A DNA stretch of 64,000 nt from Prolixibacteraceae bacterium. GTDB lineage: Bacteria > Bacteroidota > Bacteroidia > Bacteroidales > Prolixibacteraceae. The position numbers and the translations under genes are program-made. The stretch spans positions 1 through 64,000 of the forward strand of contig JAFLKN010000017.1 in the NCBI GenBank assembly GCA_019163175.1, given 5' to 3'. Shown piece after piece: positions 28,543 to 39,180 of the stretch. How positions within the stretch are numbered: the stretch's first letter is position 1; each line of letters opens with the position of its first letter. The notes under the pieces were generated by a model. That model did no database searches and had not been told where the DNA came from. It saw only the letters and a program-made list of their open reading frames with translations.

Positions 28543-28545
28543 ATA

Positions 28546-28600
28546 CATGACATAAATAAAAAAAAGCAGCTAGAAGCTGCTTTTTTTTATTTATGTCATG
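28546..28600. terminator. Long perfect terminator hairpin after glgP
   Basis: A perfect 26-bp stem (28546-28571 with 28575-28600) with a 3-nt loop. The GCAGC/GCTGC core is flanked by A8 and T8, giving U-tracts on either strand. It isolates the glycogen cluster from the downstream transglutaminase gene. Confidence 0.92.
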
Positions 28601-28782
28601 TCATGTTTTGTGTCTATTTGATAAATTATGAACTATTCCGAAGTCTATTTGTCAAATAATAGTTATTAATGCAATCACAATATCAAATTGTCGGAATTAA
28701 AACTTATATTGGTGAAGTGACCAATTTGTTGTAAGGAATTAAGTTTATTTTCTTTCTCAATCATCTCAAGTAAAAATCGCAT

Positions 28783-31700
28783 ATGGCAATTATCGTAGCT
28801 ATCAAGCACAATACATATTACCAGTACGACCGCCAGATCAACATGGGCGCTCATGTGATTCGTCTGAAACCCGCTCCGCACAGCCGAACCAAAATTCATT
28901 CGTATTCCCTGAATATTGGGCCGAAGGAGCATTTTATCAACTGGCAGCAAGATTCGTTTGGCAATTACCTGGCCCGTGTGGTGATGCACGATAAAGTTAA
29001 AGAGTTTAAGGTTGAAGTGGAGGTTGTTGCTGAAATGACCGTGATTAATCCGTTCGACTTTTTTGTGGAAGAATATGCCAATAAATTCCCATTTAAATAT
29101 GAAGATCAGGATGTTAAAGAATTAGCACCATATTTCGAGATTGTGGAAGATGGCCCACTTCTTCAGGATTGGATCAATAAAGTCTCGGTATACCGCGATA
29201 TGAATATCGTCGATTTTCTGGTGGCAATTAACCGTGAGGTGAATAAGGAAATTGAATACACGGTTCGCCTTGAACCCGGCGTATTTACCTGCGAAGAATC
29301 ACTGCAAAAAAAGCTGGGTTCATGCCGCGATTCGGCCTGGCTGCTGGTTCAAACCATGCGCCACCTCGGGCTGGCTGCCCGTTTTGTCTCCGGATATCTG
29401 GTGCAGTTGAAAGCCGACCAAAAAGCCATCGACGGACCATCCGGGACTGAAAAAGATTTTACCGATTTACATGCCTGGTGCGAAGTTTACGTTCCCGGTG
29501 CAGGTTGGATTGGTCTGGATCCGACTTCCGGATTACTGGCCGGCGAAGGTCATATTCCGCTGTGTTGCACCCCGGCGCCGTCAAGCGCTGCGCCTATTTC
29601 AGGAGCAATTGATCCTTGTGAAGTGGAGTTTTTCCACAGCAACGAAGTGTTTCGGATTCATGAAGATCCGCGGGTGACCAAACCTTACAGCGATGAACAA
29701 TGGGCCGGAATTATGGCTTTGGGCGATCAGGTTGATCAAAAATTTGAAGAAGGAGATGTTCGGCTGACTATGGGCGGTGAACCTACTTTTGTGTCGATCG
29801 ACGATATGGAATCGGAGCAATGGAACACCGCTGCCGACGGCGACGCGAAAAGGGTTTTGTCAAATAAACTGATTCACAAACTCAGCGAGAGTTTTGGCAA
29901 GGGCGGACTGTTTCACTACGGACAAGGCAAGTGGTATCCGGGCGAACCCACGCCGCGTTGGCAAATGGCGCTTTACTGGCGGAAAGACGGTTTGCCCATC
30001 TGGAAGAACAAAAAATGGCTGGCCGATTTCAGCAAAAACTACGGACATACGTTTAAAGATGCGGAGAAATTTATGACTTCGCTGACCCGCAAAATGGGCG
30101 TGGCTGTCGAAAATGTGGTTCCGGGCTACGAAGACGCGTTTTATTATTTGTGGACCGAGCGCAAACTCCCGGTCAACATTGATCCGCTAAATATTGATTT
30201 GAAAGATTCGCTTGAGCGCAAAACCATGATGGAGCAACTTGAGCGCGGACTGAATGATCCGACCGGATTTATTTTGCCGCTTCAGTGGGCGTATCAGAAA
30301 AATGGCTGGATCAGTTGCGAGTGGGAATTTCGCGGTGGAAAAATGTTTTTGATTCCCGGGAATTCGCAGATGGGTTACCGCCTGCCACTCGATTCGCTCC
30401 CTGTTGTGCCCGAATCGAAACGACCGAAACCTGCCGAGCGCAGCCCTTTCGAAGAGTCGGAAGCACTGGATGATTTTCACGAAAGTGTGGAAAAACGCTC
30501 AGATGAAGTGCCCGATTATTCCATTCCTAAAGAAATGCTTTTCCCGAAAGAATACAAAGAGGAGGAAGAGGAAGACGACAAAAAGAACAAAGGAAAACAT
30601 CTGCCTTTTCAGGAAAAGAAGGAAGAAAAGAATGAATACAAACCGCTATACGATGCGTTTACGATAAAAACCGCGCTGGTTTCGGAAATACGCGACGGTA
30701 AAATTCACCTGTTTTTGCCACCAGTTGAAATGATTGAACATTACCTCGATTTGTTGGCAGCCATTGAGTTGACTTGTGAAGAGTTGCAAATACCGGTAAT
30801 TATCGAAGGTTATGCGCCACCCAAAGATACACGCATCGAGAAAATGATGGTGACTCCCGATCCGGGGGTGATTGAGGTGAATATTCATCCGGCCAAATCG
30901 TGGCAGGAAGTGGTTAACAACTACAATATTCTGTTTGAAGCAGCTCTGGACAGCCGTCTGGGTTCCGAAAAGTTTATGCTCGACGGAAAACATACCGGAA
31001 CAGGCGGCGGAAACCACATCACGCTGGGCGGAGTGACACCTTCGGATTCGCCTTTGCTGCGCCGCCCTGATTTGCTGCGAAGCATGCTGGCCTTCTGGCA
31101 GCATCATCCGGGTTTGTCGTACCTTTTTTCCACAGCGTTTATCGGACCAACCAGTCAGGCACCGAGGGTTGATGAAGGCCGCGCTGAAATGCTTTACGAG
31201 CTGGAAATTGCATTTGACCAGATTCCCGATCCGGGCGAGGGCGAAGTACCATTTTGGTTGGTTGACCGGTTGTTTCGGAACCTGTTGATCGACCTGACTG
31301 GAAACACGCACCGTGCCGAATTTTGCATCGACAAACTATATTCTCCTGATTCGTCAACCGGACGATTGGGGATTCTGGAATTGCGTGGTTTCGATATGCC
31401 GCCGAACCGTCAAATGTGTCTGGTGCAGTTGCTGCTCATACGCACACTGGTTTCGTGGTTCTGGGAAAAACCTTACAAAGGCAAACTGGTTCGCTGGGGA
31501 ACCGAATTGCACGATAAATACCTGACACATCATTTTGTGCGTGAAGATCTGAAAGATGTCGTCAGTCAGTTGAACGAAGCCGGATATGCGTTCGATGTCA
31601 ACTGGCTGGAACCGTTTTTCGAGTTCCGTTTTCCACATATTGGTCGGGTAAAATTTAAAGATGTTGAACTGAGTTTGCGCACCGCCATTGAGCCCTGGAA

Positions 31701-32262
31701 TGTGTTAGGCGAAGAAATGTCGAGCTCGGGAACTGCCCGTTTTGTGGATTCGTCGGTCGAAAGAATCGAAGTCAAAGCCATTGGTTTAACCGGAGAGCGC
31801 TATGCAGTTTTATGCAATGGAATGCGTATTCCGATGGTCAACACTGGTACGAAAGGCGAGCATGTGGCTTCTATACGATACCGTGCATGGCAACCACCAT
31901 CGGCACTGCATCCAAATCTGGGAGTGGATACGCCGCTGGTATTTGACATCTTCGATTTGTGGGTCGGCAAATCGGTGGCAGGCTGTACTTATCATGTGTT
32001 TCATCCTGGTGGCAGGGCTTACGACACGTTCCCGGTAAACAGTTTTGAAGCTGAGGGCAGGCGGGTTTCGCGCTTTTACAACGAAAATCATACACAGGGA
32101 GTTCTCACACCGAAAGAAGAAGTCAGTACCGAAATCCGCAGGTATATTCTTGAAAAGGAAATGGATACCAATGAGCGGGTAGTAATTACCCCAAAAATAA
32201 TCGAACCCGATCCGGAGTACCCACATACGTTCGATTTGAGAAAGTATAAGTTGAAGAAATAG
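28783..32262 (+). CDS. Transglutaminase-like protein fused to DUF2126
   Basis: A 1159-residue soluble protein with two parts. Residues 1-290 form a bacterial transglutaminase N-terminal beta domain plus a transglutaminase/papain-like core, with the triad visible as Cys181 (LGSCRDSAW), His230 (DLHAWCEV) and Asp246 (GLDPTSG). Residues about 320-1159 form DUF2126, with YGQGKWYPGEPTPRW, a charged linker rich in Glu/Lys near 590-625, GKHTGTGGGNHITLGG and RRPDLLRSMLAFWQHHPGLSYLFS. This fusion is a standard partner of circularly permuted ATP-grasp and alpha-E proteins. The minus-strand operon at 32664-36894 supplies exactly those partners. It probably cuts or transfers peptide amide bonds; the substrate is unknown. 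Confidence 0.92.
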   Translation: MAIIVAIKHNTYYQYDRQINMGAHVIRLKPAPHSRTKIHSYSLNIGPKEHFINWQQDSFGNYLARVVMHDKVKEFKVEVEVVAEMTVINPFDFFVEEYANKFPFKYEDQDVKELAPYFEIVEDGPLLQDWINKVSVYRDMNIVDFLVAINREVNKEIEYTVRLEPGVFTCEESLQKKLGSCRDSAWLLVQTMRHLGLAARFVSGYLVQLKADQKAIDGPSGTEKDFTDLHAWCEVYVPGAGWIGLDPTSGLLAGEGHIPLCCTPAPSSAAPISGAIDPCEVEFFHSNEVFRIHEDPRVTKPYSDEQWAGIMALGDQVDQKFEEGDVRLTMGGEPTFVSIDDMESEQWNTAADGDAKRVLSNKLIHKLSESFGKGGLFHYGQGKWYPGEPTPRWQMALYWRKDGLPIWKNKKWLADFSKNYGHTFKDAEKFMTSLTRKMGVAVENVVPGYEDAFYYLWTERKLPVNIDPLNIDLKDSLERKTMMEQLERGLNDPTGFILPLQWAYQKNGWISCEWEFRGGKMFLIPGNSQMGYRLPLDSLPVVPESKRPKPAERSPFEESEALDDFHESVEKRSDEVPDYSIPKEMLFPKEYKEEEEEDDKKNKGKHLPFQEKKEEKNEYKPLYDAFTIKTALVSEIRDGKIHLFLPPVEMIEHYLDLLAAIELTCEELQIPVIIEGYAPPKDTRIEKMMVTPDPGVIEVNIHPAKSWQEVVNNYNILFEAALDSRLGSEKFMLDGKHTGTGGGNHITLGGVTPSDSPLLRRPDLLRSMLAFWQHHPGLSYLFSTAFIGPTSQAPRVDEGRAEMLYELEIAFDQIPDPGEGEVPFWLVDRLFRNLLIDLTGNTHRAEFCIDKLYSPDSSTGRLGILELRGFDMPPNRQMCLVQLLLIRTLVSWFWEKPYKGKLVRWGTELHDKYLTHHFVREDLKDVVSQLNEAGYAFDVNWLEPFFEFRFPHIGRVKFKDVELSLRTAIEPWNVLGEEMSSSGTARFVDSSVERIEVKAIGLTGERYAVLCNGMRIPMVNTGTKGEHVASIRYRAWQPPSALHPNLGVDTPLVFDIFDLWVGKSVAGCTYHVFHPGGRAYDTFPVNSFEAEGRRVSRFYNENHTQGVLTPKEEVSTEIRRYILEKEMDTNERVVITPKIIEPDPEYPHTFDLRKYKLKK

Positions 32263-32290
32263 AGGGTTTTTTAATCATGGAATGGTTAAA

Positions 32291-32654
32291 TCCGCCATCG
32301 GCGGATAAATATTGATGACCCCCAATGAAATTGGGGGACAAAGGAGAACAAAAAGAAAGAACCCTTGAAAAGGGTTCAATGTTTATGAATAATTATTCAA
32401 CCCTTTTCAAGGGTTGGTGTTCTCTGGCTATTTGTCGGCCCCCAATTGTATTGAGGATCAATAACATCGAACCCTTTCAGGGTTCTGTTTGATCAGGAAA
32501 GCGGCAGAGCCGCAAAATATTTGTAGAAAGGAAATCTTCCCAGAAGTAAAAGGTGCAGCGCACCGGAATCAATATGTTGTTTTGATATTCCGGTGCGCTG
32601 CACCTTTAATACACGTTTTCAATTGAGACTACAACTATTTTGGTGCTCTGCACC
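32291..32654. repeat. Array of eight short palindromes between convergent genes
   Basis: Perfect inverted repeats lie at 32291-32305, 32319-32337, 32359-32377, 32398-32416, 32469-32485, 32501-32513, 32549-32607 (21-bp stem, 17-nt loop) and 32642-32654. Three share an ACCCTT.../...AAGGGT core with a 3-nt GAA or TTC loop, so they are variants of one unit. No ORF is present. The look is that of REP-type intergenic palindromes. Some copies will also act as terminators or mRNA 3' stabilisers for the genes on both sides. Confidence 0.85.
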
Positions 32655-32663
32655 CCAAAATCC

Positions 32664-33368
32664 TCAATCCTCAAAATGCAGAAAATCGGGTAGGTCATTT
32701 GCTGCGTTGATCAGCATCTGATTCCATTGAATGGCGGTGTCTTTTAAGTCATTTTCTGTTTTGCGTAATTCCTGAATATCGAATGTTCCGTTACGATACA
32801 GGGCAAAATCGATTGGAAAGTCAACATCACTGGCATTTTTAAAGGTTGCATCAAACGAAAGGAACGCTGCTTTAATGGCCAGATCGAACGAAACATCTTC
32901 GTGCATCAAGCGTCGTAAAATCGATTTTCCAAAGCCGGTATTTCCAATAATAGTGTAGGGCGATTCGTCGGAGGTTTCCACCCAGTTCCCTTCAGGAAAA
33001 ACCAAAAATATGGTCGAACGTTTGTCTTTACTGCATTGGCCGCCGACAATAAAATGCGCATCGAAAAAGAATTTGCTTTGCTGAAGCTGTTCCATATCTT
33101 CAATTCGGGCCTGTTTAACCGCATTACCAACCATGGTGGCTATTTTGTACAGTTTGTCGGTGGGGTGATCCGATAACTCATCTTCAAACAGATGGATCAC
33201 CTTATCGCGAATGGATCGCAGTCCGGATGACATGATGAAAAATGAGTTTCCATCTTCCTGATAAGTTTTTATTTTTTTTGAAGTTGAAACTCCCAATCCA
33301 CTGCTGATTCGTGTGTCTGAAAGGGCTACAACTCCGGTTTTACTTTTTATGGCGATGCAAAATGTCAT
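32664..33368 (-). CDS. Anbu-type proteasome-like peptidase
   Basis: The start is set at ATG 33368 because removal of that Met exposes a threonine (MTFCIAIKSK), the N-terminal nucleophile. The longer frame from 33434 would bury it. In mature numbering Thr1, Asp17 (ALSDTR) and Lys33 (KKIKTYQ) reproduce the proteasome-fold catalytic triad. The product is 234 residues, about the usual Anbu length, and GNTGFGKSILRRLMHED near residue 145 is characteristic. Anbu assembles into ring- or helix-like oligomers and is encoded beside ATP-grasp/alpha-E/transglutaminase genes in many bacteria. It is the last gene of the operon, 103 nt after the transglutaminase. Confidence 0.92.
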   Translation of the reverse strand: MTFCIAIKSKTGVVALSDTRISSGLGVSTSKKIKTYQEDGNSFFIMSSGLRSIRDKVIHLFEDELSDHPTDKLYKIATMVGNAVKQARIEDMEQLQQSKFFFDAHFIVGGQCSKDKRSTIFLVFPEGNWVETSDESPYTIIGNTGFGKSILRRLMHEDVSFDLAIKAAFLSFDATFKNASDVDFPIDFALYRNGTFDIQELRKTENDLKDTAIQWNQMLINAANDLPDFLHFED

Positions 33369-33471
33369 AAGCGATAGGATAAATTGTTGTCGGTTAAATG
33401 GTTGAAAATTTATGAATTGACTAATGTTTCCCAAATAGTAAATCGTAAATTTTCAATTTGTAAATATATAC

Positions 33472-34314
33472 TTATTGGTTCGTTACGATAACTGAATGAA
33501 TACTTTTTTGTGCGCCAGTGGTCTCAAGTACGCCGATAATCGGACTGCAATCGCGGTAGTCGGTGCCATGCGCAATTTTGATGTAATGATGGTCGGACAC
33601 CAGGTTATTCGTCGCGTCGAAACCCACCCATCCCAGATCCGGAATCAAGGCTTCGGCCCAGGCATGCAACTGGCTTGTTCCGGTGAAACCTGCTCCCTGA
33701 TTCAGGTAACCACTAACATAGCGCGCTGGTATTTTGTTCTGCCGGCAGATCGAAATAAACAGGTGCGCATAATCCTGACAAACTCCTTTCCGGATTCGCA
33801 AAACCTCTTCGATGGGTGTATTTACGTCGGTACTTTCGGGCGAATACTCGAGTAACTGATACAGGAAACTGGTTAAATGGAGTAAATATTCGAAGATCTG
33901 AATTTCGCCGTTATATTCAGGAAAAGTATAATTGACAAGAGCCGGCATTTTTGTCAAATCGGTTGACCTTAAAAACAAGCTATTGTCAATCTGAAAGTCG
34001 AGTGAATGAATGAGCTCATATTCGTCAGATGGCAAAAGCGGACTGATATAGAACGGGTTAATTTCAGGTTTTGTAATTTTTGCCGACAACTTAAACCAGA
34101 ATTCGGTGAACGGATTGCTGATGTAATAGTTGATGATTTCGAATCCGAAAATATTTTTGGAAATAAGCGTTTCCTGATTTTCAGAGCAATAAAATTTCAA
34201 TTCCTGAACCTGCTGCGAATTGGAATCAGGAATGACCAACAATTGAAAATTGGCTTTCCTGACGGGGGCTTCGTACTTGTTTTCGATAAAATATTCAATG
34301 TAAAACTCTTCCAT
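33472..34314 (-). CDS. Transglutaminase-like cysteine peptidase
   Basis: A 280-residue protein with an N-terminal beta domain (residues 1-150) and a transglutaminase core. The catalytic set is Cys179 (RKGVCQDYAHLF), His217 (QLHAWAEA) and Asp233 (VGFDATN), followed by HHYIKIAHGTDYRDCSPI, a motif typical of the COG1305 members in this gene neighbourhood. No signal peptide, so cytoplasmic. Its start codon overlaps the stop of the alpha-E gene (TGATG), so translation is coupled. It probably hydrolyses or transfers the isopeptide-type bonds made by the ATP-grasp enzyme; that is inference. Confidence 0.92.
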   Translation of the reverse strand: MEEFYIEYFIENKYEAPVRKANFQLLVIPDSNSQQVQELKFYCSENQETLISKNIFGFEIINYYISNPFTEFWFKLSAKITKPEINPFYISPLLPSDEYELIHSLDFQIDNSLFLRSTDLTKMPALVNYTFPEYNGEIQIFEYLLHLTSFLYQLLEYSPESTDVNTPIEEVLRIRKGVCQDYAHLFISICRQNKIPARYVSGYLNQGAGFTGTSQLHAWAEALIPDLGWVGFDATNNLVSDHHYIKIAHGTDYRDCSPIIGVLETTGAQKSIHSVIVTNQ

Positions 34315-35252
34315 CAGAAAGAAAGGTATTTCTTTTCGAGCTCTGCTCCAATTTCCGTAATCCGGTCCTGCGTGTAGTTTAATAAGCCGTAAATATCATC
34401 TTTATATTCGTCAAACGAAAGGTAGCGATACTGTTCGTAGAGCTTTCCGATTTTGAAGCTGATTGTATTCGATTGCGGACTTTCATTCTGGCTAATCTTT
34501 GCTTCGTAACGTCGGATTCCGTTTAACGAATAGGCAATGGAACGCGGGCAATGCGGGTTGAGCATCAGGAATTCGAGCACTTGTTCGCGGTCGGGAATAG
34601 AACGGTAAAATTTGCGGTTCATGTCAAACGATTCCACGCAACGCAACAGGGTGGTCCATTCGAAGCTCATTTCGTTTACCGGATGACCGGTCTGCTCAAT
34701 TTTATAAATGTCGTGCAATTTGGAGTTGATGATTCGGATGATCTGCAGCGCCCGTTCAATGTGCATTCCCAACAGAATAATAGCCCACTCTCCATCGTGA
34801 AGCAAAGTTCCGTATATCTTGCTGCTAACGATTGAAGTCTGATCCAGAATCAGCTGGTTAAATTCGTAAAGTCCGGTTGTCAGATAGACTTCCTGCGGAT
34901 AACTGGTCGCCAGATGGTAGTATTTGTTGATGGACTCCCAAAGTTCTGTTGAAATAACATTTCGGGCACCGCGGGCATTTTCGCGTGCAAAGGTAATATT
35001 GCTGATAATCGAATTGGTATTTGAGGTATCCAGGCCAATTCTGAACAGGATGTCTTTTTCCTCCATACCTTCCATATCGAATATTCCGGCCATATACAGC
35101 ATCGATTCGAGCACAAAATTCCGGTCGTAAGTTTTCAGAATCGGCGCATCGAGCGACGAAAAATAGATTTGTTTGCTATAGCGGGCAAAATGTTCGGCGC
35201 GTTCGATGTATCGCCCCATCCAGTATAAGTTGTTTGCTACTCTCGATAACAT
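34314..35252 (-). CDS. Alpha-E domain protein (DUF403)
   Basis: A 312-residue all-helical protein with the alpha-E signature at the N-terminus: MLSRVANNLYWMGRYIERAEHFAR. Repeated E/R-rich helices follow, with NARGARNVIS near residue 92 and HCPRSIAYSLN near residue 235, both conserved in the family. No enzymatic function is established. The domain occurs almost always with circularly permuted ATP-grasp proteins, sometimes fused to them, and may position the peptide or metabolite substrate. It is the second gene of the operon; a palindromic repeat of about 90 bp lies in the gap before it. Confidence 0.93.
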   Translation of the reverse strand: MLSRVANNLYWMGRYIERAEHFARYSKQIYFSSLDAPILKTYDRNFVLESMLYMAGIFDMEGMEEKDILFRIGLDTSNTNSIISNITFARENARGARNVISTELWESINKYYHLATSYPQEVYLTTGLYEFNQLILDQTSIVSSKIYGTLLHDGEWAIILLGMHIERALQIIRIINSKLHDIYKIEQTGHPVNEMSFEWTTLLRCVESFDMNRKFYRSIPDREQVLEFLMLNPHCPRSIAYSLNGIRRYEAKISQNESPQSNTISFKIGKLYEQYRYLSFDEYKDDIYGLLNYTQDRITEIGAELEKKYLSF

Positions 35253-35303
35253 AGTTTCGTGTTTTTAATGACTCAATTAAGTAAAAGGAACAATCTGTTT
35301 TTT

Positions 35304-35390
35304 ACTCACCCCGAAGCCCGATAAATCGGTCTTCCCCCCTCTCTTCGCGAAGAGAGGGGTCAGAACACCGTAGGTGTGATGGGGGTGAGT
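35304..35390. repeat. Nested palindromic element inside the ATP-grasp operon
   Basis: Outer arms ACTCACCCC (35304-35312) and GGGGTGAGT (35382-35390) enclose a perfect 24-nt palindrome (35336-35359, core TTCGCGAA), a CCGATaaATCGG palindrome and an ACACCgtaGGTGT hairpin. It fills most of the 178-bp gap between the ATP-grasp and alpha-E genes. Confidence 0.8.
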
Positions 35391-35430
35391 TCTTGTTCGA
35401 ATACTGCAATAAATTATTTTAAAATACTCG

Positions 35431-36894
35431 CTAACCCAATACCCAGGTGTCTTTCGAACCTCCGCCCTGTGAGGAATTTACAATCAGGTTTCCACGTTTC
35501 AGAGCCACACGGGTCAGTCCGCCTTTCAGGATATATTCGGTATCTTTTCCCATCAGGCAGAAGGTGCGCAAGTCGATGTGGCGCGGCTCAAATTCCTTGG
35601 TTTCTTCGATAAAAGTGGCATGTACCGAAAGGCTCATAATGGGCTGGGCAATGTATTTTCGCGGATTCGATTTAATCCGGACTTTCACTTCTTCAATTTG
35701 CTCTTTGGTCAAAGTTGTGCCAATGGTGATTCCGTAGCCACCCGATTCGTCAACCGGTTTCACCACCAGCTTGTCGATATTCTCGAGTACATAGTTGACC
35801 TCCGATTCCTTTTCGCAGTGATAGGTTTTTACATTGTTCAGGATGGGTTCTTCGTTGAGGTAATATTTAATGATATCCGGAACGTAGTGATATACCGCTT
35901 TATCGTCGGCAACACCGGTTCCGGGAGCATTGGCAAGGGTTACATTTCCGGCGCGGTAAGCATTCATGAGGCCGGGAACTCCGAGCATCGAATCTTTCCG
36001 GAATACCAACGGATCAATAAATTCATCGTCAACCCGGCGGTAAATCACATCTACCCGAATTGGCCCGTGAATGGTTTTCATGTACACGAAGTTTTTGTCG
36101 ACAAACAGATCGCGACCCTCAACCAGCGGAACGCCCATTTTTTGCGCCAGAAAGGAGTGCTCGAAATAGGCAGAATTGTACATGCCGGGTGTAACAACCA
36201 CCACTGTCGGAACATCAATATTTTTTGGCTTAACTGTTTTCAGAATCTCCAGCAATTGCTCCGGATATTGATACACCGTTTTTGTTTTGAGCTTATCAAA
36301 CAAATCGAACAGCGACTTTTTCAAAGCCAGCCGATTCGATAAGACGTAACTAACTCCTGAAGGGCATCTCAGGTTGTCTTCCAATATATAGTATTGTCCG
36401 TCAGTATGTTTAATTAAGTCGGTTCCTGAAATGTGGGTGTAAATTTTACCTTCCGGCGTGAAATCGACCATTTCTTTCAGGTAATTTTTCGATGAAAAAA
36501 TCAGGTCGGCAGGCACCACCTTATCTTTCAGGATCAATTTCCGGTGATAAATATCGTCGAGAAAGAGGTTGATGGCTCTGTTCCGCTGAATCACACCTTT
36601 TTCAAGCTGCATCCACTCATCGTTTGGAATAATCCGTGGAAACAGATCGAAAGGAAATATCCGCTCATCGGGTTTTTTGTCATCGGAATAAACAGCAAAA
36701 GTGATTCCCTGGTTAAAGAATGCCGTTTTCACCTCGTTGTTGATCCGCTCATAATCTGAAAGACTCAGCTGATTAAAGCGTTCCACGATGCTTTGGTAAT
36801 GCTCCTTCGGTTCTTTGGTCTCCTTGAAAACTTCATCGTAGTGGGAGTTGGTCAAACTGTATGAATCCAATATCCCCTTCTCCGCCTGTTTCAT
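35431..36894 (-). CDS. Circularly permuted ATP-grasp type 2 protein
   Basis: A 487-residue COG2308-type enzyme. Conserved blocks are FPFDLFPRIIP near residue 82, a D-[IL]-[YH]-x-x-[KR] segment at 113, DLIKHTDGQYYILEDNLRCPSGVSYVLSNR (residues 156-186), RVDVIYRRVDDEFIDPL, VGVPGLMNAYRAGNVTLANAPGTGVADDKAVYHYVP and, at the C-terminus, VKPVDESGGYG with the Arg-rich DLRTFCL. Such enzymes are predicted to form amide or peptide bonds through acyl-phosphate intermediates using ATP. It heads the minus-strand operon with alpha-E, transglutaminase and Anbu genes. The substrate is unknown. Confidence 0.94.
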   Translation of the reverse strand: MKQAEKGILDSYSLTNSHYDEVFKETKEPKEHYQSIVERFNQLSLSDYERINNEVKTAFFNQGITFAVYSDDKKPDERIFPFDLFPRIIPNDEWMQLEKGVIQRNRAINLFLDDIYHRKLILKDKVVPADLIFSSKNYLKEMVDFTPEGKIYTHISGTDLIKHTDGQYYILEDNLRCPSGVSYVLSNRLALKKSLFDLFDKLKTKTVYQYPEQLLEILKTVKPKNIDVPTVVVVTPGMYNSAYFEHSFLAQKMGVPLVEGRDLFVDKNFVYMKTIHGPIRVDVIYRRVDDEFIDPLVFRKDSMLGVPGLMNAYRAGNVTLANAPGTGVADDKAVYHYVPDIIKYYLNEEPILNNVKTYHCEKESEVNYVLENIDKLVVKPVDESGGYGITIGTTLTKEQIEEVKVRIKSNPRKYIAQPIMSLSVHATFIEETKEFEPRHIDLRTFCLMGKDTEYILKGGLTRVALKRGNLIVNSSQGGGSKDTWVLG

Positions 36895-37455
36895 ATCCTT
36901 TGGTTTTTATTTATTACAGTTTTATCGTCAAAGATTCAGTAGATCTTAAAATTGAATCTCATATTGACACGAATATAGCAAAATAACAATCAAAAAGACA
37001 GAATAGTTTACCGGATAATGTAAAAATAACACAAAGTACAGTTTGGGTTAATGTAAAAGGGAGTATGGTGATTGGTGTACCCTGCTGAATAGGAAGCTGG
37101 ACGAAAATCCACAATTTGCGGCAATTTCGTTGATTGGTAAAGCGGAAAAATCCTGATGAAGTGAGCAGCTTTTTCGAGCCGAAGCCGGATGACGTCTTGT
37201 TTGGGTGTTACCAGCAGTGCCTCCGAAAAGATTTTCCGGAAATGAAAGGGGGTATAATTGGCTACAGCAGCCAGGGTTTCGAGCGAAACATCGCCGGTCA
37301 GTATACCGATATCGAAAACTGAAGCCTTAAAAATCCCATTAATTTTTAATCAATTTTAGACCGATCGCGGGTCCCTAATTCTCAGGCTTGGGCGTAAAGA
37401 TGCCCACCGAAAACCACTGCTGCCGAACTTGACGACGTGCTGATGTTGCCGGTAG
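36895..37455. other. Gene-poor 560-bp stretch, possible decayed sequence
   Basis: The left part should carry the promoter for the ATP-grasp operon; TTATTTTG on the minus strand at 36979-36986 is a one-mismatch -7 box. A 62-codon + frame at 37134-37322 shows no recognisable domain and no ribosome-binding context, and frames around it are broken by stops. This may be a remnant of a gene lost when the AT-rich pair next door arrived. Confidence 0.4.
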
Positions 37456-38238
37456 TTATTTTTTTATTTTTTCTTTGAGTTGTTCTAACTTTTTCTTTGC
37501 TTCTTCAATTTTCTCTTTCTTTCTTAATTCATCAAGTTTTTCATCCAAGATAATTTCAATTCCTACCCTAAGCGTGTCAAAATGAGCCAAACAGGTTTGT
37601 TCATCTAATTCATGGATGCCAAGACTTAAAATGGAGTACATTGATTTATTTTCAACTAAAAATGTAGGCAAATATTCACTCAATAAATCTATTTTATCTT
37701 CCATTCTTGCTTTTTGAAAATCACCATTAGAAATAACGCCATCTGATTCTGCTTGACTAAACGCTTCCGAAATTAAACTTTCAAAAATACGACGTAGATA
37801 TACAAACGAACCAATACCAACTCCATTTGCTGCTAAACCAATTGCTTTTGTAAACTCTTTTAACTTGTTATCTGATAAAAGTTTTTTGTATTGTTTAACT
37901 TCATTGATGTGAAAGTCAGCGACTGAAGGAAATTGTCCAATTTTAACCAATATGCTCTTTTCTGGAATCCATAAAATAAAATACCTAAACTCATCTCCAT
38001 ACCTTTTGCATTTTATCCTCAATTCAGCATGTCCACCTTCATTAAAATAATCTCGGTGATAGTGACTTAGTGATCTAGATATTTGAAATGTGGATTGTAT
38101 CTTTTTCCAAGGATTGTATCCTTCAAATGTATTATCTAAATCATCAATCTTTATAAATTCGTTCCATTCTTCTTCTTTGATTGTGATTGCATTATATATA
38201 GGAGTATCAAAGAAAAATTTTTCGACTGTAAAATCCAT
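37456..38238 (-). CDS. Conserved hypothetical protein of an AT-rich accessory pair
   Basis: A 260-residue soluble protein without signal peptide. Residues 1-130 are mixed alpha/beta with no motif I can name. From about 140 it becomes helical: an IG..GVGIGSFVYLRRIFE segment, then EDKIDLLSEYLPTFLVENKSMYSILSLGIHELDEQTCLAHF. The last 40 residues are a Lys/Glu coiled coil. I have the impression that the middle segment recurs in widespread hypothetical proteins, but I cannot name the family. Codon use is clearly AT-richer than in the flanking genes. It lies 26 nt after the 38265-39080 gene, so the two form an operon. Confidence 0.7.
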   Translation of the reverse strand: MDFTVEKFFFDTPIYNAITIKEEEWNEFIKIDDLDNTFEGYNPWKKIQSTFQISRSLSHYHRDYFNEGGHAELRIKCKRYGDEFRYFILWIPEKSILVKIGQFPSVADFHINEVKQYKKLLSDNKLKEFTKAIGLAANGVGIGSFVYLRRIFESLISEAFSQAESDGVISNGDFQKARMEDKIDLLSEYLPTFLVENKSMYSILSLGIHELDEQTCLAHFDTLRVGIEIILDEKLDELRKKEKIEEAKKKLEQLKEKIKK

Positions 38239-38264: not shown

Positions 38265-39080
38265 CTATTTTAGTTTGTTGATGATGTTTTTTATAATTAA
38301 GTCATCAAAATCGTTTTCTCCCGCTATATTTTGCAATAGAGTTTTTAAATATTTCAATTTTTTATCCGAGTCAAATGAAATATATCTTCTATGGCTTTTA
38401 GGAGTTGAGTTAAAATACTTCTCTATTGTTTCCAAAAAATATCTTTCTAAGTCAATATTTTCAATAATATATTTATCAATTTCAGATACAAAATCTTGTG
38501 TTCCTTTAATTAGTGATGCCGTTTCTTTAAATGTGAAGTCGCCACCAGATTCCCATGTCTTTTTTAATTGTATTATTTCAAGTCCAGCAAATCTGCCTTT
38601 TAATTCATCTGCTTTCTCAACTAAGCAATTAAGACTTGATTCTCTAATTTCATTATCAATATCATAATGAAATGTGTAATTTCTCCACGTAATTAAAACT
38701 TCCATTAATGCTATTAAGATAGGATCAACATCAATTTCATCAGCGATAAAGATTGTTTTTTTATAAACAGATTGACCTGCTCTTGAAAATAGAATTGTAA
38801 ATTGTTCAGATTCCAATAATTTTGGTTTCCTATTTAATTCAGTCATAAACATTTCTAAAGACTCAACCGCCCAAGCAAGAAACGATTTTAAGATGAATAC
38901 TCGTGATCGTTCAGCTGAGCGTTTATAATCTCTTGGATTCCAAGATGTATTAAAGCTTTCGGGTTTTACCGTTATCTGTCCAGATTGAATACCATCTATA
39001 CCAACAAGAGCTGTAATTAATAAATGATTTGCTTGTCCAAACCTTTTCTTAAATTCCTTTTTTGCAGGAGATATTTTCAT
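38265..39080 (-). CDS. Hypothetical protein with HEPN-like RX4H motif
   Basis: The start at ATG 39080 (MKISPAKKEFKKRF) avoids overlap with the adjacent tRNA-like element that a start at 39107 would need. The product is 271 residues, mostly helical. The sequence WRNYTFHYD (Arg133 to His138) is an R-N-x-x-x-H arrangement, the signature of HEPN-type ribonuclease domains, and it sits at the end of a long helix as in that fold. The rest is unrecognised. AT-rich composition and position next to a tRNA-like sequence suggest horizontal acquisition. A defence or toxin role is possible but is only inferred from one motif. Confidence 0.6.
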   Translation of the reverse strand: MKISPAKKEFKKRFGQANHLLITALVGIDGIQSGQITVKPESFNTSWNPRDYKRSAERSRVFILKSFLAWAVESLEMFMTELNRKPKLLESEQFTILFSRAGQSVYKKTIFIADEIDVDPILIALMEVLITWRNYTFHYDIDNEIRESSLNCLVEKADELKGRFAGLEIIQLKKTWESGGDFTFKETASLIKGTQDFVSEIDKYIIENIDLERYFLETIEKYFNSTPKSHRRYISFDSDKKLKYLKTLLQNIAGENDFDDLIIKNIINKLK

Positions 39081-39095
39081 TTTTTTTCTTAATAG

Positions 39096-39180
39096 TGCAT
39101 CTGGCAAGAGTCGAACTTGCTCTCTTCCTTTAAAAGGACTATTTAGGTCTTAAAGGGAAGCGCCCCCCGGCTACAGATAC
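39096..39180 (-). tRNA. tRNA-like element, atypical or degenerate (Leu-class length)
   Basis: Reading the minus strand, a 7-bp acceptor stem (39174-39180 with 39097-39103, one G-U) closes an 85-nt sequence. It has a 5-bp T arm whose loop TTCGACT fits the TTCRANY consensus (39104-39120), and discriminator A. The total length fits a class II tRNA such as Leu. However the D arm is not canonical (GCC, then a run of G), and the centre folds as one long hairpin of about 12 bp with a bulge rather than an anticodon arm plus variable arm. No anticodon can be assigned. It may be a decayed tRNA, an integration-site remnant or a tRNA-mimicking RNA. Confidence 0.4.

Follow-up and report, generated by a model that had tools for sequence, protein, structure and literature searches.

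What do enzymes that are predicted to make and to break amide bonds accomplish together when their genes travel as one set? The question is raised by a locus of a Prolixibacteraceae bacterium (GenBank assembly GCA_019163175.1, contig JAFLKN010000017.1), of which positions 1 to 64,000 of the forward strand were analysed (the window). At 28783–36894 the window encodes a protein with transglutaminase (TG) and DUF2126 domains, a circularly permuted ATP-grasp protein, an Alpha-E protein, a stand-alone TG-fold protein and the proteasome-like hydrolase Anbu. The locus holds the known Anbu operon, complete and under selection, accompanied by a gene for a DUF2126 protein, and does not represent a new kind of system. 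As a member of a known, still unsolved system it is ordinary, and its compact layout may help experiments. The gene set is spread over many phyla, and no substrate has been assigned to it in the open-access literature surveyed by title and beginning of abstract.

The five genes and their products

Five intact open reading frames (ORFs) are present at 28783–36894, all at the coordinates proposed by a first-pass annotation made from the letters alone, and all score above their Pfam cut-offs; all five genes are real. The annotation had described them as a coherent set of known families, and this description is borne out by the ORFs, the matches in Pfam and in the Protein Data Bank (PDB), and the intact active sites. 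The genes form two convergent arms, the TG-DUF2126 gene on the + strand facing the ATP-grasp, Alpha-E, TG and Anbu genes, which follow one another in this order of transcription on the − strand. As in Anbu operons, the ATP-grasp gene adjoins the Alpha-E gene on one strand, the TG has a Cys-His-Asp triad, and Anbu has its Thr, Asp17 and aligned Lys. The Alpha-E and TG genes overlap by one base, and elsewhere in the arm the genes lie 178 and 103 bp apart, a spacing suggestive of a single transcript.

The ATP-grasp protein (35431–36894, − strand, 487 residues) is of the circularly permuted type 2 (CP_ATPgrasp_2, 534.4 bits), and its residues 19–486 align with PDB 3n6x (E 1.5e-148). Alpha-E (34314–35252, − strand, 312 residues, 227.3 bits) is all-helical in an AlphaFold2 model of high quality (predicted local distance difference test score, pLDDT, 95; predicted template modelling score, pTM, 0.93), and the pairs E17-R18 and E166-R167 are conserved; model and conservation both come from 62 sequences. 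In a Foldseek search, to which the statement on structural matches is confined, nothing in the PDB matched the model at E ≤ 0.001 (the best E was 0.22, with TM-scores of at most 0.34 among the matches listed), nor did anything at that threshold in a library of viral structures. The Alpha-E profile gave a single line at E ≤ 1 (0.75) against PDB sequences, which was taken as chance. The predicted fold is thus a structural handle on a component for which Foldseek found no solved relative.

The TG-DUF2126 protein (28783–32262, + strand, 1159 residues) joins an N-terminal TG, comprising an N-terminal region and a Cys-His-Asp core (about residues 6–247), to a putative amidoligase domain (277–1153). 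The DUF2126 profile is matched over its full length (1–826 of 826, 1293.6 bits), together with Bact_transglu_N and Transglut_core, so that the protein has both the TG and the full domain expected of a DUF2126 amidoligase. Its triad C181/H230/D246 is invariant in 20 aligned sequences. No PDB sequence matches at E ≤ 0.01; the structural model is mediocre (pLDDT 69 from 20 sequences), and its best Foldseek matches are TG-like proteins (3isr, E about 1e-10).

The stand-alone TG-fold protein (33472–34314, − strand, 280 residues; Transglut_core 75.7 bits) aligns with PDB 3isr (E 1.7e-16), and C179, H217 and D233 are kept in 102, 101 and 102 of 102 sequences. Both triads had been called intact beforehand, and rightly so.

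Anbu (32664–33368, − strand) passes the Pfam Proteasome cut-off of 22.4 with 33.8 bits, and its identity is confirmed by the solved Anbu 5nyj (E 2.3e-34). The ORF is open to a TTG at 33434, and a start at the ATG at 33368 places Thr1 directly behind Met; judged from the sequence, this ATG, not the TTG, is most likely the start. Thr1 (ORF T24) is Thr in 27 of 28 homologues and Ser in one, and Asp17 (D40) is present in 28 of 28. The third residue named in the first-pass annotation, Lys33 (K56), does not hold, being Lys in just two of the 28; the conserved lysine is Lys31 (K54 of the ORF, numbered from Thr1), which is invariant in 12 aligned Anbu sequences and aligns with the second lysine of a YKKL stretch in the solved Anbu. 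An Anbu-2 subtype of Bacteroidetes and others has been described (PMC5666114).

Co-occurrence of the genes

The distribution of the set was followed across 395 genomes, sampled evenly from the phylum, among which family f43 dominates; phylogeny is uncorrected, so that co-occurrence p-values are too favourable. Alpha-E was matched in 143 genomes and ATP-grasp in 152, both being present in 141. The two genomes with Alpha-E only have weak matches, as do most of the 11 with ATP-grasp only (nine at E 1e-11 or weaker). All 26 genomes with Anbu (E ≤ 1e-10), from nine families, and all 12 with DUF2126, from seven, fall inside the 141. The families therefore co-occur as had been said, and the lack of co-conservation in relatives that the first-pass annotation had named as a refutation was not seen.

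Adjacency was counted at loci chosen by Alpha-E and having 4 kb on both sides, which left 55 of 61 Bacteroidota loci and 56 of 80 loci of a broader scan (6 and 24 being dropped for short flanks); the 80 are the best of 529 confirmed places, and two places occur in both sets. ATP-grasp adjoins or is fused to Alpha-E at 48 of the 55 and 53 of the 56 loci, as a fused protein at 7 and 11, respectively. From this adjacency and fusion we infer that Alpha-E is a partner of the ATP-grasp. At five of the ten loci where adjacency fails (L038, L045, L053, L059 and L060, in genomes G309, G431, G197, G335 and G343), Alpha-E stands alone and ATP-grasp is encoded elsewhere in the genome, as is Anbu in four of them. 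G309, a single contig, has kept Alpha-E, ATP-grasp and Anbu though they lie megabases or nearly so apart; linkage alone is therefore insufficient to explain the co-occurrence.

The compact form and its closest relatives

Two forms of the set can be told apart among the 12 DUF2126 genomes. Eight (G151, G186, G197, G214, G250, G262, G286, G343) have at least two ATP-grasp and two Alpha-E matches, one Alpha-E sitting in a fused frame of 857–905 residues; the fused gene is close to DUF2126 in five (G186, G214, G250, G262, G286), about 15 kb away in G343, and far off or on another contig in G151 and G197. The other four (that of the window, G124, G218 and G222) have one ATP-grasp and one Alpha-E, unfused, with Anbu beside. 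Convergent arms with a separate TG are found in the window and in two relatives whose locus is seen whole, L077 (genome G029) and L078 (G009).

The nearest described system is the Anbu operon of Proteobacteria (for example Yersinia bercovieri, or Pseudomonas putida PP_2685–2688), which has the same four families with the same active-site residues; a Pseudomonas locus (L183) even has the one-strand order ATP-grasp, Alpha-E, TG, Anbu of the window. The window differs in its convergent DUF2126 gene, and in that neither a second, fused ATP-grasp-Alpha-E gene in its genome nor a sigma-54 site was found. In the loci of the fused type (five sample genomes; L192 of Sphaerotilus, L174 of Pelomonas, L184 of Bythopirellula), TG-DUF2126 is ringed by ATP-grasp, Alpha-E and TG domains as in the window, but the ATP-grasp-Alpha-E protein near DUF2126 is fused, whereas the window has one unfused pair with Anbu. 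The f32 loci (L074, L081, L093) and L123 (Saprospirales) resemble the window in that DUF2126, Anbu and one copy each of ATP-grasp and Alpha-E lie together; unlike it, they are divergent and no separate TG gene was detected at the locus. Maribacter and Zeaxanthinibacter, which are cultivable, have ATP-grasp, Alpha-E and TG. With ATP-grasp, Alpha-E, Anbu and DUF2126 each present once in the genome, and no paralogue to mask any of the four, the compact form would be a convenient deletion model.

The nesting of DUF2126 and Anbu within genomes having ATP-grasp and Alpha-E, together with the single-pair form, leads to a bolder and rather speculative idea, which we think unlikely: Alpha-E, all-helical and with no solved counterpart detected, could be the obligatory partner of an ATP-dependent amide ligase, and DUF2126 and Anbu could feed its one product, making up an undescribed nitrogen-salvage amide cycle.

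Proposed function

The reading that we prefer, held tentatively and with a little less than even confidence, is that the set runs an ATP-driven cycle of ligase and amidohydrolase reactions, whose substrates would be small peptides or amino-acid-derived amides and which is probably linked to nitrogen shortage. The ATP-grasp, partnered by Alpha-E, and the DUF2126 domain would both use ATP to activate a carboxylate and would build amide bonds on a small peptide or a compound derived from amino acids; cleavage or transfer of these amides would fall to the two TG-fold domains and Anbu, closing the cycle. The ATP-grasp of the Y. bercovieri operon releases phosphate from ATP (PMC6376114). The probable tie to nitrogen is drawn by analogy from Proteobacteria: I35_5080–83 (DUF404/407, DUF403 and two transglutaminase-like proteins) are among the genes changed in an ntrC mutant of Burkholderia cenocepacia (−6.0 to −9.4; PMC5491218), PP_2685 and PP_2688 of P. 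putida are higher on nitrate than on ammonium (log2 4.44 and 3.99; PMC8050072), and sigma-54 promoters are predicted for COG3484, that of Anbu, in Proteobacteria (PMC12316311). Mutant and association data for these families in the parts of PMC6414703 and PMC8407117 that were covered are too thin and were not used.

Several observations weigh against such a cycle. The operon and Anbu structures have been described together with a lack of detected peptidase activity (PMC5666114; PMC6376114): with Anbu of Y. bercovieri, cleavage was seen for none of three fluorogenic substrates, binding to the other operon proteins was not specific, and the ATP-grasp was not stimulated (PMC6376114). Synthesis of a peptide or metabolite amide had been mentioned in the first-pass annotation as a proposal from comparative genomics, and is retained here in conditional form; peptide synthesis is held less likely, on structural grounds, by Fuchs et al. 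(2017; PMC5666114), who regard protein degradation as the likelier role of Anbu and point out that expression of the operon stays unchanged under various conditions. No amide product of any enzyme of the set was met with in the literature surveyed. The DUF2126 domain may have a glutamine-synthetase-like fold, several glutamine synthetases being among the Foldseek matches of its model, but the resemblance is weak (best E 0.018 at pLDDT 69). As to nitrogen, no sigma-54 site with a GG/GC core in the direction of the gene was found within 300 bp of either arm, and upstream of 66 Bacteroidota genes such sites are not clearly enriched (3 of 66 versus 9 of 507 controls at up to two mismatches, 7 of 66 versus 42 of 507 at up to three). 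The nitrogen link of Proteobacteria may therefore not be valid in this phylum. Sigma-54 itself is encoded in the genome, and a lone match with two mismatches lies at 36965–36980 on the opposite strand.

Search for tags, precursors and partners

A second explanation, discussed in PMC6376114 and PMC5666114, is protein tagging and degradation: in the manner of Pup-proteasome or ubiquitin-deubiquitinase systems, the ligases would mark proteins with a tag or with amino acids, and the marked proteins would be degraded or de-tagged by Anbu, which is homologous to the proteasome and whose Thr, Asp and Lys are intact. A small tag encoded with the module would be expected of a Pup-like system. Small ORFs were compared: 2501 of 18–129 residues, outside large genes and within 4 kb of module genes, at 143 loci (including two places twice, L082/L126 and L089/L118, and two, L105 and L106, that have only pieces of DUF2126). 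No recurring tag-like or precursor-like ORF was found among them, although very short or fast-changing peptides would escape and a tag gene could lie elsewhere in the genome; within these limits the statement of the first-pass annotation that no obvious precursor is encoded nearby is right. Of the 141 genomes that have both ATP-grasp and Alpha-E, moreover, just 26 have Anbu, so the core manages without it elsewhere. A Pfam scan of 16 representatives, drawn from the 22 commonest clusters of neighbours, showed no AAA+ protease partner, the lone AAA-type match being an ABC transporter ATPase. Tagging is for these reasons considered improbable.

Thirteen of the 14 small-ORF clusters present at three or more loci were rejected as precursors or tags, being confined to f31/Flavobacteriaceae synteny. 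They comprise an ArsC-family protein, a DUF1508 protein, further ORFs often antisense to these, and a 21-residue peptide ending in LGALRRYL directly before an RF2-like gene (PCRF/RF-1), which we take to be an RF2 frameshift leader. The fourteenth is an AT-rich upstream sequence common to the close relatives L078, L079 and the window (36946–37032).

Production of one particular small peptide for secretion or storage, with the hydrolases serving maturation, would agree with the presence of two domains or proteins of ligase type and three of hydrolase type, with the patchy presence in the genus (Alpha-E in 3 of 23 genomes) and with an ABC transporter ATPase cluster within 4 kb at 5 of 139 loci, which are scattered. 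Across these 139 loci, however, no gene is widely recurrent within 4 kb beyond local synteny, be it a transporter, a carrier protein or a precursor, and presence in many phyla is unlike that of a niche metabolite cluster; a dedicated peptide is accordingly doubtful as the product. Among the neighbours, a ComEC-like competence protein occurs at 16 loci, all Burkholderiales-type records; RF2, ArsC, the DUF1508 protein and others occur in Flavobacteriaceae; and PAS/histidine kinases are also seen. A zinc-ribbon metallopeptidase (PF15887 and PF10005) lies near the module at three loci (L037, 7401–8450, − strand; L122; L135) at a median distance of 79 bp, and is possibly a further hydrolase partner.

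History of the module in the genus

Three of the 23 genus genomes were found to contain Alpha-E, as were 4 of 37 in the family and 6 among all 61 relatives searched, counting the window's own genome, some genomes being incomplete. The DUF2126 protein was found in 4 of the 23: it is complete in the window and G009, truncated at the end of a contig in G002, and broken in G007, where only pieces with stops remain, lacking the start, part of the middle and the end, on an 8-kb piece with no other module gene. An RlmF-like methyltransferase gene adjoins DUF2126 in G009, G002 and the G007 remnant; in the window it lies on the opposite side, 3.1 kb from the ATP-grasp gene. The RlmF-like region was compared in 16 further genomes of the genus, 14 of them without module genes. 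The two genes that flank the module in G009, RlmF-like and CAP-domain, are 0.1–6 kb apart in 10 of the 14 (113 bp in G016); in the compared stretch of the other four the CAP gene was not found.

Between the window and G009 the ratio of non-synonymous to synonymous divergence (dN/dS) is 0.029–0.079 across the five module genes, with dS of 0.80–1.55. Four of the five have dS of 1.2–1.5, compared with 1.1–1.5 for four neighbours and saturation for a fifth, values that are rough near saturation. The DUF2126 gene, at 0.80, is below the other module genes and the neighbours, for which codon bias or gene conversion could be responsible. The low dN/dS and mostly neighbour-like dS suggest, as far as sequence comparison goes, a module that is old, under selection and repeatedly lost; repeated gain at one place is a possible alternative. 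Recent horizontal gain was rejected, as the module dS is mostly neighbour-like and a quickly computed Alpha-E tree, in which the sequences of the family form one clade beside a Flavobacteriaceae clade, shows no recent donor. That the module is a dispensable relic on its way out of the genus would fit the absence of Alpha-E from 20 of the 23 genomes (some incomplete) and the broken remnant at the same place in G007, but five intact genes at such dN/dS values speak against it, and we regard it as highly improbable.

Intergenic elements and flanking genes

The gap between the arms (32263–32663) contains hairpins, with 7 terminator-like sites against 0.7 expected. The first-pass annotation had stressed two convergent arms separated by palindromes; the convergent layout recurs in L077 and L078, but no like hairpins or palindromes were found between the arms of these two relatives. 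Given this absence and the excess of terminator-like sites, the hairpins are best read as terminators rather than a conserved part of the system. A mobile repeat was considered and rejected: the core GGTGCAGCGCACC occurs three times in the genome, two of these here, and the longer form only here.

Outside the module, glycogen-type genes near the window copy were rejected as companions, since L077 and L078 showed none in the 20 kb compared. A terminator-like inverted repeat, perfect over 27 nt and with a loop of 3 nt (28545–28601), lies 3′ of a phosphorylase-like gene. Between the ATP-grasp and RlmF-like genes are ORFs of 260 and 280 residues (37456–38238 and 38265–39107, − strand), which have no Pfam or NCBIfam match and were not found in the compared stretches of relatives. 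Upstream of the ATP-grasp gene, 37020–37349 (− strand) is open for 110 codons and matches an AraC-type helix-turn-helix domain below the cut-off (PF12833, E 3.5e-4); its sequence suggests a decayed regulator gene.

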